Shown here piece by piece: positions 2,301-31,858 of a stretch of 64,000 nt of DNA. Where the stretch lies: contig NZ_RCCC01000001.1 of NCBI RefSeq assembly GCF_003663825.1, forward strand, positions 2,178,501 through 2,242,500, written 5' to 3'. Numbering within the stretch: position 1 is the first letter of the stretch; every line of letters starts with the position of its first letter. Both the position numbers and the translations under genes were made by a program. The notes under the pieces were generated by a model. The model saw only the letters and a list, made by a program, of their open reading frames with translations, was not told the origin of the DNA and ran no database searches. The stretch is from Acidovorax sp. 106 (GTDB lineage: Bacteria; Pseudomonadota; Gammaproteobacteria; Burkholderiales; Burkholderiaceae_C).

Positions 2301-6533
<4,233 letters not shown>

Positions 6534-6552
6534 GCCCTTGGGCGCCGTCTAA

Positions 6553-6593
6553 AACGCTCCCGACCTGCCTCCCGGCGGGCCGGGAGCGTTTTT
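6553..6593 (+). terminator. Intrinsic terminator after rpoC
   Basis: AACGCTCCCG (6553-6562) pairs perfectly with CGGGAGCGTT (6581-6590), and five T residues (6589-6593) overlap the end of the stem. It closes the rpoBC transcript. Confidence 0.9.
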
Positions 6594-6685
6594 CATGGGC
6601 GCGCCGCTTTGTCTGTTTGCCCTCTTTACCTTTTTATTTGCTTGTCCCGCGTCGCGCCTGAAGGGGTGGTGCCAAGCTCTGGTGT

Positions 6686-7228
6686 ATGTGGTCGTCCCCC
6701 CTGTTCTGGATATTGGTTGCCGTCTTGGTGTTTTGGTCACTGGGGGCCTATAACCGTCTGGTTCGCCTCAAGGCCGCCGCGCAAGCCGCTGGTGTGCACT
6801 TGCGCGGGTTGCAAAAGCGGTGCGCGCAGTTGCCGCGCGATTGGGTGGCCGCTGGACCCACGCCAGCTTTGCCTGTGTCCCAGGGGCCTGGCCATGCCCC
6901 GCAGGTGCACACGGAGACCTTGTTGGCCGCGAGTGACCTATTGGACAAGGCCTTGTCACCAGCCAAAGCCCCGTTGCCACCGCAAGAGCCGCATGCCAGT
7001 GCCCAAGAGGCGAGCCTAGTGCTGCAAAATGCATGGGCCGATGCCATGCAGGCTGCGGCAGGTTCTGAGTGGGATGTGGCCGCATGGCAGGCGCGCTGGG
7101 CAGAGTTGCAGGCGCTGCTGGTGCCAGCACAGCGGGGCTATGAAGAGGCTTCGCAGGCGTACCTGGGTGCCATCCGCCAGTTTCCCGCCAGCGTCTTGGC
7201 CCGTGTGGTGGGGTTCGGGCCGCTGTAG
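6686..7228 (+). CDS. LemA-like membrane-anchored protein
   Basis: A 180-residue protein with one N-terminal membrane segment (residues about 5-22, FWILVAVLVFWSLGAYNRL) and a largely alpha-helical, alanine-rich remainder. The segment YNRLVRLKAAAQAAG just after the membrane helix, and the ending AIRQFPASVLARVVGFGPL, resemble the start (YNxLVxLR) and end (FPxxLxAxxxGF) of LemA-family proteins. The middle is divergent, so I treat it as a distant LemA relative of unknown role at the inner membrane. It stands alone behind the rpoC terminator. The ATG at 6686 has only a distant purine-rich stretch in front of it. Confidence 0.65.
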   Translation: MWSSPLFWILVAVLVFWSLGAYNRLVRLKAAAQAAGVHLRGLQKRCAQLPRDWVAAGPTPALPVSQGPGHAPQVHTETLLAASDLLDKALSPAKAPLPPQEPHASAQEASLVLQNAWADAMQAAAGSEWDVAAWQARWAELQALLVPAQRGYEEASQAYLGAIRQFPASVLARVVGFGPL

Positions 7229-7379
7229 GTGGATATCGCTCGGGCACCGCTGGGGGCCTAGGCAGCTTTCCGTTTGAATCTATGTTGTGCGCGCTTGCAT
7301 GCTGTGTGCGGGCGTGTGCAAGGCTTCTTTTTTCCTGCTGTGGCGCGCCCTGTTGTGCCGCTTCGTTTTCCTCCAATCC

Positions 7380-8828
7380 ATGAACTCACCCACCCCACGC
7401 CATGCGCGTTCTGCCCGCCCCGCCGCGGCAACCAAGGCCGATCGGCCTAAAGCCCCCGCTTTGCCCACGCAAGGAGGGGCGCCTAGCGCAAGCATGCCTG
7501 TGCCTTTGTGGCAGCAATTGACGGCCGTGGCCCAGGCGCTGCAGGCCATACGCGGCGGGCAATCGGGGACGGCGGCGGTGGATGCGGTGGAGCCCCGTCT
7601 GCGCCCCGGGGTGCAGGCGCTGCTGTTTCAGGTGCTGCGCCAGTTGGGGCGGGCCGATGCCCTGCGCAGCCAACTGGTGGCCCGCAAGCCCCCACCTGCC
7701 GCCGATGCGCTGCTGTGCACCGCCTTGGCCCTGGCCTGGGACCCGCAGGCGGCACCCTACGAGCCTTTCACCCTGGTCAACCAAGCGGTGGAGTCGGCCA
7801 AGCGCGGGCAGGCCACGCGGGGCCAGGCTTCGTTCATCAACGCTTGCCTGCGGCGTTTTCTGCGCGAGCGCGATGCCCTGGTGGCTGCCACCGATGCCGA
7901 TCCTGTGGCCCGTTGGAATCACCCGGCCTGGTGGATTCGGCGGGTGCAGCAGGATTACCCCAGCGACTGGGAGCGCATCCTGCAAGCCAACAACGCCCAC
8001 GCACCCATGGCTTTGCGCGTTAATCAACAAAAATGCACGCTAGCGCAATATCAACAAGCGCTGGCAGCTATTAATTTGGTAGCAACCGAGGTGGGCGGCT
8101 ATGGGCTGGAGCTGGCCCAGCCGGTGCCTGTGCAGGCTTTGCCGGGCTTTGCCGACGGCTGGGTGTCCGTGCAAGACACGGCCGCACAGCAGGCGGCGCC
8201 TTTGCTGCTGCAGGGGTTGGACTTGACGCAGCCCCTGCGGGTGCTGGACGCTTGCGCCGCGCCGGGGGGCAAAACCGCGCATTTGCTCGAACACGCCCCT
8301 GTGGGTGCTGCGCTGCAGGTCACGGCGCTGGAGGTGGATGCCGTCCGCAGCGAACGCATCCATGGCACGCTGGCCCGTTTGGGGTTGTCGGCCCAGGTGC
8401 TGGTGGCCGACGCTGCCCGGCCGCAGGACTGGTGGGCGTCGCAGTGCGGCGGGCAGCCCTTTGATGCCATCTTGCTGGATGCGCCGTGCACCGCCTCGGG
8501 CATTGTGCGCCGCCACCCGGACGTGCGCTGGCTGCGCCGTGAGTCGGACGTGGCCCAATTGGCACAGTTGCAGGCCCGCATCCTGGCCGCGCTGTGGCCC
8601 CTGCTCAAGCCCGGCGGGCGCCTGTTGTACTGCACCTGTTCGGTCTTCAAGGCCGAGGGCGATGCACAGATGCAAACGTTTCTTACACACAACACCGACG
8701 CACGATTGCTACCCTCGCCGGGTCATTTAATTCCCCGAATCGGGGACAAGGCTGGGGCTGTCCCGGACAATCCACTGGGTGATCACGACGGATTTTTTTA
8801 CGCTCTGTTGCAAAAATCAGCGCAATGA
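7380..8828 (+). CDS. rsmB: 16S rRNA (cytosine-967-C5)-methyltransferase
   Basis: RsmB (Sun/Fmu), about 482 residues, methylates cytosine 967 of 16S rRNA with S-adenosylmethionine. An N-terminal NusB-like RNA-binding domain (about residues 40-190) precedes the methyltransferase domain. The SAM loop reads LDACAAPGGKTAHLLE. The two catalytic cysteines are Cys370 in DAPCTASGIVRRHPD and Cys420 in YCTCSVFKAEGD. The frame is open from 7287, but the first 31 codons look unlike the family, so I start at the ATG at 7380; no clear ribosome-binding site precedes it. Its last 50 bases overlap the following DUF4390 gene, which fits translational coupling. Codons about 214-234 derive from a family A repeat (see that entry). 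Confidence 0.93.
   Translation: MNSPTPRHARSARPAAATKADRPKAPALPTQGGAPSASMPVPLWQQLTAVAQALQAIRGGQSGTAAVDAVEPRLRPGVQALLFQVLRQLGRADALRSQLVARKPPPAADALLCTALALAWDPQAAPYEPFTLVNQAVESAKRGQATRGQASFINACLRRFLRERDALVAATDADPVARWNHPAWWIRRVQQDYPSDWERILQANNAHAPMALRVNQQKCTLAQYQQALAAINLVATEVGGYGLELAQPVPVQALPGFADGWVSVQDTAAQQAAPLLLQGLDLTQPLRVLDACAAPGGKTAHLLEHAPVGAALQVTALEVDAVRSERIHGTLARLGLSAQVLVADAARPQDWWASQCGGQPFDAILLDAPCTASGIVRRHPDVRWLRRESDVAQLAQLQARILAALWPLLKPGGRLLYCTCSVFKAEGDAQMQTFLTHNTDARLLPSPGHLIPRIGDKAGAVPDNPLGDHDGFFYALLQKSAQ
8023..8083. repeat. Family A repeat inside the rsmB reading frame
   Basis: The stretch around GCACGCTAGCG, CAACAAGCGCTGGCAGC and TATTAATTTGGTAGC matches the intergenic family A repeat (for example the copy at 14250-14300), although it lies within coding sequence. 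It is noticeably richer in A and T than the surrounding rsmB codons and encodes QQKCTLAQYQQALAAINLVA in frame. Confidence 0.6.
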
Positions 8829-28503: not shown

Positions 28504-29019
28504 TCACATCCAACGTGACAAAAGCGCCAGGCTCAAGTTAAACCACGCATGGGTGGCAATGCAGGCACAAAGGCTGCCGCTGCGGCGCCACACCTCGGCC
28601 AGCGCCCAGCCTGGCAGCAGCCACCACAGGCAGTGCCAGCCATGGGCCGGGGCGTGGGCTGCGGCAAACACTATTGTTGTCAGTACGGTAGCGCCGTGCG
28701 CCGCCGCCCAGCGCCGCACCGCTGCCCGCAATGCGGCTGAGCGGGGCCAGAATCTGCTGCGCAGTGGAGGGCGCCACCGCTGCAGCCCCTCGTGCAGGCT
28801 GCTCTGTACCAGCGGGCGAAAAACAGACTCTTCCAGCACGGGGGCAGCCAGCAGAACCCATAACCATGCCCACGTACCCGCAGGGCGCAGCCCCATGCCC
28901 AGCCAGTGCTGTGCGATCCATGCCATGGCCACCGCAGCAACCCACAACCCCGCCAGAAAGACCAGCAGCCGGGTGGGGTGAGGGCGTGCTTGTCGCCCGG
29001 CGCGCAGTGGCTGCGTCAA
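28504..29019 (-). CDS. CPBP-type glutamic intramembrane protease, probable partner of the adjacent C-terminal tail
   Basis: A small (171 residues) polytopic membrane protein. The three signatures of the CPBP (CAAX/Abi) intramembrane protease family are present in order: EExxxR as Glu63-Glu64-Arg68 in PVLEESVFRPL, FxxxH as Phe118-His122 in TIVFAAAHAP, and HxxxN as His157-Asn161 in ATHAWFNLS. No ATG is available in frame and I use the TTG at 29019. It lies 79 bp downstream of a secreted protein whose C-terminus has a Cys motif, a hydrophobic helix and an arginine cluster. Family members with such a neighbour (JDVT-CTERM or MYXO-CTERM systems, named from memory) are thought to process that tail. 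Function here is inferred from motifs and position. Confidence 0.8.
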   Translation of the reverse strand: MTQPLRAGRQARPHPTRLLVFLAGLWVAAVAMAWIAQHWLGMGLRPAGTWAWLWVLLAAPVLEESVFRPLVQSSLHEGLQRWRPPLRSRFWPRSAALRAAVRRWAAAHGATVLTTIVFAAAHAPAHGWHCLWWLLPGWALAEVWRRSGSLCACIATHAWFNLSLALLSRWM

Positions 29020-29098
29020 GGCGTTCAGGGGCGCAGGTGAGTCAGGCTCATGGCATTCCAGGTCGCGCTTCTGGTCGGGGCGGGGCTCTCAGTGAATG

Positions 29099-31507
29099 TC
29101 AGCCGCGATCTACCTTACGCAGACGACGGCGCAGTGCGGCACCTGCCAGGGCCAGACCCAGCAGTGCCAGCAATGAAGCGTCGCGCCCGTCAGGGTTGAC
29201 CGTGCAGCCGCCGCCGCTGTCATCACTGCCTGGGGTGGGCGTTGGCGTGGGGGGGGGTGTCGGTGCGCCGCCTGTGCCCAGCACGCCCGTGGCCGTGGCC
29301 TCCAGCGTGAAGGAGAGTTCCGCCTCACGCTGGAACGCCTCCACGGGCGTCTCTTCAGCGCGGGCACCCTTGACCAAGGCACCCAGGCTGGCGATCACGG
29401 CGGCCCCGTCGTTGTTGGCTTCCACAATCGCGTAGTACTCGCCTGCCTTGAGCTTGTCCTTGAGCGATACAGCGTATTCCCCGTCGCCCGCACGCAGGTC
29501 CGGGGCCGCGCCGTCATCGCGCATCACTAGGTTTTCCAGAACGGCCTGACCATCTTCGTTGTACACAGTGGCTCGCACCGTAGCGCCCTTGATGCGTTTG
29601 TCAGAGGCCAGCGTGGCCCGCAGGGTCGGGGCTGTGTTGACGGTGGCCAGCACGCCACCGGTGACCTCGCCATTCAGGGCCAGACGCGATGCACTGCTCA
29701 CGTCCACGCTCAGCCCATCCACCATGGCGGCGTTGCTGGTCGCCTTCAGCGTCCACACACCATTGCGGCCCGACGCCTCAGTGCCGATGGTGACCAGGAA
29801 CACGCCTTCTGCGGCGTCCAGTTCCATGTCAATGCCTGCCGGGGCATTGGCGGGGGTAAAGACGCGGCCATTGGGCGCGGTCAGGCTGAAGCTCAGCTTC
29901 TTGGCATCGGCTGGGTCAAAGTAGCTTTCGACGTCCACCGCGCCGTCCAGCGCAGCGCTGGCGATGCGGAACTGGGTGCTGAAGCTGCCATTGGCTGCGA
30001 GCGCATCCGAGCCATCCAGACGCACGGATGCGACGGCCTTGGCATGCACTTCGTTCAGTGCGCGGGTCACGTCCTTGGCGGCTTCCGCGCCGTTGCGGGC
30101 AGAGTTGTAGGCACCGCCTGTGAGCTGGGCCAGTTGCGTCAGGTTCACCGAAGCACCTGCCTTGGACTGGAGCACGGCCGTCTTGGCGCGTATGGCGCGG
30201 GCTTCTGCGCTACCCCCCGTCAAGCCCAGGGGGCTGACGGCGATGCGGGCAGTTTTGGCGGTGGACGCCGCTTCTGCAGGCACCTGGGCCTCGGAGCCGG
30301 TGAGCAGGTGCAGGGTGGCGGGGTCGCCCGCCTGGCGCGCTGCACCAATCAACTCATAGGCCTTGGTAAAGGCTGTCAGCGCGTTGAACGCGCCCGTTGT
30401 GTCGGCCTGGATGGCATCCAGTGCGGCTGTCAGAGTCTGCTTGCCTGCTGCATCCGCCGTGGTGAACGCCGCTACGGGTTCACTGCCCGTGGCGGGAGAC
30501 GCCACGATGGCGAACTGGGTGTTGGCTGCAGCCTGCCCGATCAGCGTTTTGGCTGCTTGCATCAGGTCAGCCAGGCGGGCTGCGGGCAGCGTGCGGTCCA
30601 CCACGATCACGTCGCGGAACACCGGCGCTGGTGCAAAGATCAGCTTCAGGTCTGCATCAAACCCGGTGGTGGGGCGTGTCAGGTTCAGGGTCTTTGGATC
30701 AACGCCACGGAAGGCCTCGAAGAACGTGCGTCCCTGGCCACGGGCGACTTCAGGGTCCTGCTCGGGTGGTCTGGTCAGCATCTCCCAGGCACTGCCGCCA
30801 GTGCCATCACTTTGTGTGGCCATCATGCGGGCCTGGGCGGTTTTGCGCTCAGCGGGGTTGGTGTAGTCGGCGGGGGTCGATAGCGACACGAACTCCAGGT
30901 GGTTGTTCATGGCCGTGTTCTTGGGCGTGTCTTCGCCAGAGGGGCTGCCTGGGTCGCTGGGCTTGAGGGCGGCACCGGCCTCCACATACTCGTCGTACAG
31001 GCCGTAGGTGTAGTGGCCCAGTTCGTGGTTGATCACCTTGCCCAGGGCATCCACGCTTTCAAAAGCGCCGCTGTAGGCCAGGTAGTTGTAGGAAGTCTGT
31101 CCCCGAGTGCCCCAGCCGGAGATGTTGGCCGCTGAGCGGTCGGACTTGTTGATCATCCGGATGTCGACGTTGTTGCCGAACTGTCCATTCTTGTAGATGA
31201 ACACGTTGCCCAGGCGGTGTCGGCCTTCCGTGGCGGTGAACTTGCTGCGGGCGACGGTACGGATCACCTGGGTGATGTAGGCGCGGTCCAGCAACTGTCC
31301 GGGGTTGTCCTGCTGTGTGGGCGGGCTGTCGTAGTCCCAGTCCACGTTCACCACGTAATCGATGATGTTCACATCACGCACGGCGGTGAGCGGGTGGTTG
31401 GCTGCCTGGGCGGCCATGTAAGGCTGAATGGCCAGGGTGGCAGCCAGCGCTGCGGCCACGACGCGCTTCAGTGTGGGGCGCTGCAGGCCCGGGGTCTTGC
31501 TCTTCAT
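29099..31507 (-). CDS. Secreted CLCA-like metalloprotease with VWA domain and C-terminal sorting tail
   Basis: An 802-residue exported protein. A signal peptide ends near residue 35 (MAAQAANHP). The zinc motif HELGHYTYGLYDEY at residues 161-174 gives His161, Glu162 and His165 plus an Asp-Glu pair, matching the HExxHxxxGxxDEY pattern of the CLCA family. A VWA-like domain follows (about 335-500) with a degenerate metal site (DVIVVDRT). Near 680-730, LVMRDDGAAPDLRAGDGEY resembles the CLCA beta-sandwich domain. A Thr/Pro linker leads to the tail GGGCT at 765-769, a hydrophobic helix and the cluster RRRLRK. AAGGAG precedes the ATG at 31507. The next gene on the strand is an intramembrane protease. 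Substrate unknown. Confidence 0.85.
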   Translation of the reverse strand: MKSKTPGLQRPTLKRVVAAALAATLAIQPYMAAQAANHPLTAVRDVNIIDYVVNVDWDYDSPPTQQDNPGQLLDRAYITQVIRTVARSKFTATEGRHRLGNVFIYKNGQFGNNVDIRMINKSDRSAANISGWGTRGQTSYNYLAYSGAFESVDALGKVINHELGHYTYGLYDEYVEAGAALKPSDPGSPSGEDTPKNTAMNNHLEFVSLSTPADYTNPAERKTAQARMMATQSDGTGGSAWEMLTRPPEQDPEVARGQGRTFFEAFRGVDPKTLNLTRPTTGFDADLKLIFAPAPVFRDVIVVDRTLPAARLADLMQAAKTLIGQAAANTQFAIVASPATGSEPVAAFTTADAAGKQTLTAALDAIQADTTGAFNALTAFTKAYELIGAARQAGDPATLHLLTGSEAQVPAEAASTAKTARIAVSPLGLTGGSAEARAIRAKTAVLQSKAGASVNLTQLAQLTGGAYNSARNGAEAAKDVTRALNEVHAKAVASVRLDGSDALAANGSFSTQFRIASAALDGAVDVESYFDPADAKKLSFSLTAPNGRVFTPANAPAGIDMELDAAEGVFLVTIGTEASGRNGVWTLKATSNAAMVDGLSVDVSSASRLALNGEVTGGVLATVNTAPTLRATLASDKRIKGATVRATVYNEDGQAVLENLVMRDDGAAPDLRAGDGEYAVSLKDKLKAGEYYAIVEANNDGAAVIASLGALVKGARAEETPVEAFQREAELSFTLEATATGVLGTGGAPTPPPTPTPTPGSDDSGGGCTVNPDGRDASLLALLGLALAGAALRRRLRKVDRG

Positions 31508-31857
31508 CTTCGAACTCCTTGCGGTCAATACACGGAAGGAGGGCGCTGCAGAGCAGCGTGTGTGCCAGCGCTTGGTGTCTGCGGCTGTGCTTTTTGGCAC
31601 TTTGATTTCCCTCTCCAGCGCGGAGTATCTGCAGGCAAAAAGCAAAGGCAACAAAAAATTGCGCAGGTGCACGCAAGCCCTTTTTCTGTGCTGGAACAAA
31701 GAGCCATGTCCCATGGCGAAGCGGGTTGATGCGGGCGACGCGAGGCGATGCAGGGCTATTCCATTTCCAAATCATTCCTGACTAGGCGCGAAGCCGCAGA
31801 CAGTGCTCAAGCACGGCAAGGCAAAGCAACAACGTCAGGGGTGATTTAGAAATGGAA
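31508..31857. other. 350-bp non-coding gap upstream of the CLCA-like gene
   Basis: No convincing gene is seen here. The upstream half (31758-31857) is a 101-bp inverted-repeat element described separately. The rest holds the 5' region of the CLCA-like gene, which is on the minus strand. It contains an A/T-rich patch at 31651-31663 that could be part of a promoter, but no hexamer pair is convincing. The open frame of the CLCA-like gene extends into this gap but lacks protein character there. Confidence 0.6.
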
Positions 31858-31858
31858 T
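31758..31858. repeat. 101-bp element bounded by 25-base inverted repeats
   Basis: The left arm 31758-31782 (ATTCCATTTCCAAATCATTC then CTGAC) and right arm 31834-31858 (GTCAGGGGTGATTTAGAAAT then GGAAT) are inverted copies matching at 22 of 25 positions. The 51 bases between are unrelated. The right arm reaches the LysR stop codon. It resembles a miniature transposable element or the remains of an insertion sequence. Confidence 0.6.

Follow-up and report, generated by a model that had tools for sequence, protein, structure and literature searches.

A CLCA-like JDVT-CTERM protein and its MrtJ-like neighbour in Acidovorax sp. 106: a probable two-gene surface-sorting module with a divergent protease

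The DNA analysed here is a 64,000-nucleotide stretch of the genome of Acidovorax sp. 106 (contig NZ_RCCC01000001.1, positions 2,178,501 to 2,242,500), referred to as the window, and this report concerns two neighbouring genes on its reverse strand. The first (29099..31507, 802 residues, ATG start, TGA stop) encodes a protein, here called the cargo, that appears to be secreted, resembles CLCA (calcium-activated chloride channel regulator) proteins and ends in a JDVT-CTERM tail. The second (28504..29019) lies 79 bp downstream on the same strand and encodes a MrtJ-like glutamic intramembrane protease of the CPBP (Rce1-like) type, which is 171 residues long when read from a TTG start to its TGA stop. 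A sequence-only reading of this DNA had proposed that the two genes are a dedicated sorting pair for one substrate, of the MYXO-CTERM or JDVT-CTERM kind. We found support for this proposal, in that the tail passed the JDVT-CTERM model and the best family of the protease was MrtJ (below its cut-off). We conclude that the sorting module is real and its two genes well paired. Its kind has been published; its protease is divergent and is named by no current model.

The cargo does end, as had been described, in GGGCT, a hydrophobic helix and RRRLRK; the tail reads DSGGGCTVNPDGRDASLLALLGLALAGAALRRRLRKVDRG, with the Cys at residue 768, and the last residues of the protein read GGGCTVNPDGRDASLLALLGLALAGAALRRRLRKVDRG. 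Residues 764-795 (29123..29218), which comprise GGGC, the helix and the start of RRRLRK, matched the NCBIfam JDVT-CTERM model (NF033191) with 35.3 bits against a cut-off of 27. In a six-frame search of the genome the match reached 40 bits and was the only tail over the cut-off; weaker matches (at most 16.4 bits) were without a Cys tail in the frames inspected and were set aside. The MYXO-CTERM model TIGR03901 gave the tail 18.2 bits, under its cut-off of 20, and some cargo homologues passed that model (P0014 with 21.9 and P0021 with 24.3 bits). When 82 cargo homologues were screened by pattern for Gly-Cys, a helix and an Arg tail, 78 were positive, and the C-terminus of the other four was apparently truncated or out of frame.

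The body of the cargo is made up of an HExxH metallopeptidase-like domain, a von Willebrand A (VWA) domain and beta domains, preceded by a signal-peptide-like N-terminus (residues 1-39, MKSK...AAQAANHP, 31391..31507) that was judged by eye only. The sequence HELGHYTYGLYDE (residues 161-173, 30989..31027) fits the zinc-metallopeptidase motif HExxHxxxGxxDE, which is the metallopeptidase motif of CLCA proteins. This pattern was present in 78 of the 82 homologues, and in an alignment of 34 of the cargo proteins H161, E162, H165, D172 and E173 were invariant, as was the tail Cys. A VWA domain at about residues 294-491 (30035..30628) scored 18.9 bits with the Pfam model, below the cut-off of 23.8, and a choice-of-anchor X domain at residues 662-697 (29417..29524) scored 36.9 bits with the NCBIfam model, above its cut-off of 25. 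The label 'CLCA-like', which had been given to the cargo earlier, can be kept on the strength of HExxHxxxGxxDE, the VWA fold, a domain order in which VWA follows the metallopeptidase domain as in CLCA, and homologues that match TIGR00868. It found no backing from the family models themselves, as the model scans listed no match of the window protein to either Pfam CLCA (PF08434) or TIGR00868. The best homologue on TIGR00868 reached 94.8 bits (E 3e-27), far below the cut-off of 900.85, and PF08434 gave 11.4-11.7 bits against 25.6 in three of the nine homologues scanned. The window protein also differs from CLCA in having a bacterial sorting tail and in lacking DxSxS, the canonical metal-binding motif of VWA domains; at the site where it would be expected, residues 302-308 (30584-30604) read VVDRTLP.

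The protease carries all three CPBP motifs intact, EExxxR as EESVFR (residues 63-68), FxxxH as FAAAH (118-122) and HxxxN as HAWFN (157-161), and the predicted catalytic core from the first to the last of these lies at 28537..28833. It scored 43.0 bits with the Pfam Rce1-like model (cut-off 22.4), which two genes of this genome pass. Its best NCBIfam model was MrtJ (NF033192) with 44.1 bits against a cut-off of 75, and eight relatives in its branch were likewise under that cut-off (40.3-64.6 bits); as the cut-off is not reached, we name the protease MrtJ-like and not MrtJ. No match to MrtX or MrtC was listed in the NCBIfam scan of the protease, MrtP gave 6.5 bits against 250, and the Mrt_core domain model gave 29.3 bits against 100. 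The spacer between EExxxR and FxxxH is 49 residues in the window, G275 and G292 (handles of compared genomes), 45 in P0009 and 23-38 in 27 other linked proteases. A structure model of the protease had a mean predicted local distance difference test score of 55.3 and a predicted template modelling score of 0.27, and a profile of the protease found no match among PDB sequences up to E 1. Charge counts and hydropathy predict that the N-terminus and the long Arg-rich loop between EExxxR and FxxxH are cytoplasmic; the FxxxH end would then face the periplasm, the side of the cargo Cys.

Within the genus we compared 47 genomes, 42 of which had a completeness of 90% or more and a contamination of 5% or less. 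Homologues occurring mostly apart, which would have refuted the proposed pairing, were not what we found: the protease was found in four genomes (the window's own, G275, G292 and G278) with the tail gene directly upstream in the same four, neither cargo tail nor protease was found in the other 43, and no genome held one alone (Fisher 5.6e-6). G275, G292 and G278 each have one JDVT tail, adjoining the protease; that of G278 scored 22.2-25.2 bits, under the JDVT cut-off, yet reads GGGCTVNPAGRDAS, helix, RWRRR. Two further sub-cut-off tail matches were rejected, one being PEP-CTERM-like by eye (G252) and one not located at the end of a protein (G257). It can be seen that in all four carriers the pair sits between the same LysR gene and the same gene for an FAD-linked (flavin adenine dinucleotide) oxidase. 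The oxidase gene was present in 44 of the 47 genomes, and at 30 loci compared both genes occurred at 4, neither at 26 and one alone at none. The LysR-oxidase gap at the pair-less loci was 182-333 bp in 16 and 639-957 bp in 4, and no LysR gene lay within 1.5 kb at the other 6, of which one is at the end of a contig. Since the pair is jointly present or jointly not found at the compared loci, the cargo and protease genes appear to be gained or lost together as a unit. Nor is the pairing a matter of chance, because the genome has a single JDVT tail and two Rce1-like genes and the pair recurs in relatives.

Beyond the genus, the cargo body turned up in 5 of 250 genomes of the family, where the query left off the last 25 residues, and in 4 of 369 class genomes, own genome included, which with G275, G292 and G278 makes 11 cargo-bearing genomes. 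A pattern search of genome contigs, in which records near the window's own may be excluded, gave 66 matches, none of them confirmed. In G361 and G491, which belong to another family, three cargo copies had tails over the JDVT cut-off (39.7, 40.9 and 43.4 bits), and MrtJ matches over cut-off directly followed the cargo (95.4 bits in G361, 101.2 in G491); the second G361 copy was followed by a MrtJ match in two pieces (63.7 and 24.5 bits). Tailed cargo homologues also occur in G053 and G376, where the tails scored 24.8 and 27.1 bits in a whole-protein scan (cut-off 27) and MrtJ-like genes lie on other contigs (85.8 and 59.3 bits). G035 has two tailed cargo copies, one adjoining the protease, and in G083 cargo and protease each lie close to a contig end. 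G009 holds two tandem cargo homologues (2490-4922 and 5152-7581) that end just before the tail position (...ESFVKTR and ...ETFVKTR); the one scanned kept choice-of-anchor X (31.1 bits) and had no JDVT match. It was the only one of the 11 genomes in which no MrtJ match was found, an absence that is not certain because the genome is 89% complete. In G376 the cargo homologue on contig C15 (2426-5023), which is the closest of the homologues to CLCA (the 94.8 bits on TIGR00868), and another open reading frame there (6326-7501) have the same kind of C-terminus, FGCSVS followed by a hydrophobic segment and RRR, and these tails stand apart from that genome's MrtJ-like gene.

We also asked how tails and proteases of any cargo are distributed over the 250 family genomes. 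A JDVT tail over cut-off was found in 28 and MrtJ over its 75-bit cut-off in 22, with both in 20, the tail only in 8, MrtJ only in 2 and neither in 220 (Fisher 3.9e-21). With a 60-bit line, which was picked after the scores were seen, there were 28 genomes with a tail and 28 with a MrtJ-like gene, both in 24, each alone in 4 and neither in 218 (Fisher 2.1e-25); both Fisher values are overstated because relatives are not independent. The four tail genomes without MrtJ at 60 bits or more were the window's own (G000), G115, G046 and G195. In G000 and G115 a lower-scoring CPBP gene with intact motifs lies nearby, and the JDVT match in G046 is without Cys (GGGGAIDP...), whereas G195 is a genuine exception. 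The four genomes with a MrtJ-like gene and no JDVT tail were G104, G163 and G083, which are 76, 70 and 85% complete and have their matches on contigs of 3.2-6.9 kb, and G246, whose CPBP protein groups among unlinked CPBP proteins in the tree; G046 and G246 were kept in the 24/4/4/218 count. For distances we used MrtJ matches of at least 60 bits and added G000 and G115 by hand since their proteases adjoin a tail: a MrtJ-like gene is at most 5 kb away from 26 of 38 tails, and these tails belong to 23 of 28 genomes. The remaining tails are farther away (9.9 kb in G159), on another contig (G042, G101) or in genomes without a MrtJ-like gene.

We consider it likely that the two genes form a module for surface sorting and operate in the manner of JDVT-CTERM/MrtJ. 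The cargo would be exported by Sec and its C-terminal helix would keep it anchored in the inner membrane, with the arginines in the cytoplasm and Cys 768 on the periplasmic side; the adjacent MrtJ-like protease would cleave the tail within the membrane, directly behind the Cys. By analogy with a published relative, the Cys would be lipidated, the tail cleaved at this site and the cargo exported through the type II secretion system (T2SS) and displayed on the surface. The surface placement proposed earlier would hold for the cargo, which is itself metalloprotease-like; the CPBP enzyme would remain behind in the inner membrane. The two-gene unit contains no lipid-transfer gene, so lipidation would come from the host or from the protease itself.

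The closest published account is PMC11980579, in the available portions of which MrtJ and one JDVT-CTERM protein are described as a conserved two-gene neighbourhood occurring sporadically in beta- and gamma-proteobacteria (citing its ref. 16). In those portions MrtJ/JDVT-CTERM is predicted in silico, and the experimental work is on myxobacterial MrtX, which removes the MYXO-CTERM tail, requires conserved Cys residues and cleaves in E. coli; the T2SS is given as the route of MYXO-CTERM proteins, and lipidation of the Cys is proposed with Lgt as the favoured candidate. The literature searched contained the term JDVT-CTERM only in that paper. The window pair shares with JDVT-CTERM/MrtJ a cargo tail over cut-off, an adjoining CPBP protease with three motifs and a single cargo, and differs in a protease under the MrtJ cut-off, the 49-residue spacer and the CLCA-like cargo. 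With MYXO-CTERM/MrtX it shares the Gly-Cys, helix and Arg-rich tail, the CPBP motifs and the proposed T2SS route, but there is one cargo here against 35 and the phylum is another. GlyGly-CTERM/rhombosortase, mentioned in that text, likewise has a C-terminal helix removed by an intramembrane protease before the T2SS, but its key residues are Gly-Gly instead of Cys and its enzyme is a rhomboid instead of a CPBP protease. The two-gene layout is already published, and what is new is the divergent loop-expanded protease branch, the CLCA-like cargo and their joint presence or absence. The results suggest that a branch of paired proteases falls outside NCBI's MrtJ cut-off, and that this pathway repeatedly handles cargo of CLCA-type architecture. 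A pair of one cargo and one protease that is either complete or not found among close relatives offers a clean setting in which to ask which enzyme puts the lipid on the Cys and whether the cut depends on it.

A number of observations weigh against this reading. The protease is 31 bits short of the MrtJ cut-off, G195 (99% complete) has a Cys tail over cut-off (C12:242033-242137) and no MrtJ-like gene of at least 60 bits, and the Fisher values, that for the genus included, are inflated by the relatedness of the genomes. The T2SS is uninformative as a partner because it is near-universal in the family: GspD was over cut-off in the window's own genome and in 220 of the 250, and two JDVT-positive genomes (G074, G101) seem, by best E-values, to be without a full GspD match. 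A potential explanation, which we hold to be unlikely, is that the protease is an unrelated CPBP neighbour and the cargo tail a plain C-terminal anchor or one cut by another protease. The failed MrtJ cut-off fits this. Of the profiles built for this comparison, one made from 27 other proteases, linked or MrtJ-type, gave the protease a score of 65.6, and those of three unlinked CPBP groups gave it 28.8, 22.1 and -3.2, but 20 unlinked CPBP proteins score 43.6-74.2 on the MrtJ-type profile, a range that includes 65.6, so the absolute score proves nothing. In a tree of 56 CPBP domains the window's own clade was supported (99/96) and the free tree placed its protease with the linked proteases on a weak branch (68/84); the deep part of the tree did not resolve, and the approximately unbiased test rejected neither competing grouping; the tree is not counted as evidence here. 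Against an unrelated neighbour stand the genus pattern, with both genes together or both not found in 47 of 47 genomes and at 30 of 30 loci, and the intermediate proteases (59-66 bits) of G035, G278 and G083, which also come from cargo-bearing genomes. Compared profile to profile, moreover, the clade of nine matched the MrtJ-type group at 138.7 and the unlinked groups at 77.4, 62.1 and 48.7, although the MrtJ-type group is the broadest of these and its breadth may favour its score.

The rates and the start codon also count against a working module. Among the window, G275 and G292 the ratio of nonsynonymous to synonymous substitution rates (dN/dS) was 0.24-0.39 for the protease and 0.034-0.065 for the cargo and neighbouring genes, which makes the protease the fastest-evolving of them. 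The position and motifs given earlier for the protease stand; its start is less sure, because the near relatives P0001-P0007 (182 residues) start at an ATG 11 codons upstream. In the window this ATG, at about position 29051, does not share the reading frame, since the stretch ahead of the TTG differs in length by one base, and we are left unsure of the true start or of the base count at 29019-29051. Both points would be expected if the pair were decaying, with the protease under relaxed selection and maybe not full-length in this strain and the cargo anchored by an uncut tail. We regard this as very unlikely: the catalytic motifs are intact, dN/dS is below 1, the in-frame TTG lies ahead of the first predicted membrane helix, and the one-base difference could be a sequencing error. 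It is also unlikely that the protease joins the cargo to a lipid amine by one-step transpeptidation, as proposed for rhombosortase, and does not act after Cys lipidation. A two-gene unit without a lipid-transfer gene would suit such a reaction, but the Cys is invariant in 34 of 34 aligned cargo proteins, and in PMC11980579 MrtX cleavage needs conserved Cys residues and the authors favour lipidation first. A bolder form of the module, which we find unlikely, is a self-sufficient unit in which a divergent MrtJ-like enzyme with an expanded loop and a single CLCA-like metalloprotease have evolved jointly. As no other gene accompanies the two, the lipid would come from the enzyme or from a universal housekeeping acyltransferase, and the bacterium would bear a CLCA-type protease tethered to its surface.

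Measured against G278, the protease had a dN/dS of 0.51 (over 101 codons), compared with 0.25-0.27 in the cargo and 0.11-0.12 in the neighbouring genes. The synonymous rate was close to 1 for the two paired genes and 0.53-0.62 for their neighbours, and because it is higher in the pair the G278 pair may have been replaced.

When five pair-less junctions were aligned with the window for the right-hand breakpoint, an oxidase-side match beyond the LysR end was found only in G293, the closest pair-less genome by oxidase identity. Its sequence becomes similar to the window again from about position 28527, close to where the protease gene ends (70% over 142 columns). An imperfect inverted repeat (31758..31858), whose 25-nucleotide arms are 88% complementary, follows the LysR gene and sits on the upstream border of the two-gene unit. 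A palindromic element after LysR can also be seen by eye at the G293 junction, and the palindrome of the window may be repetitive DNA bordering the unit.

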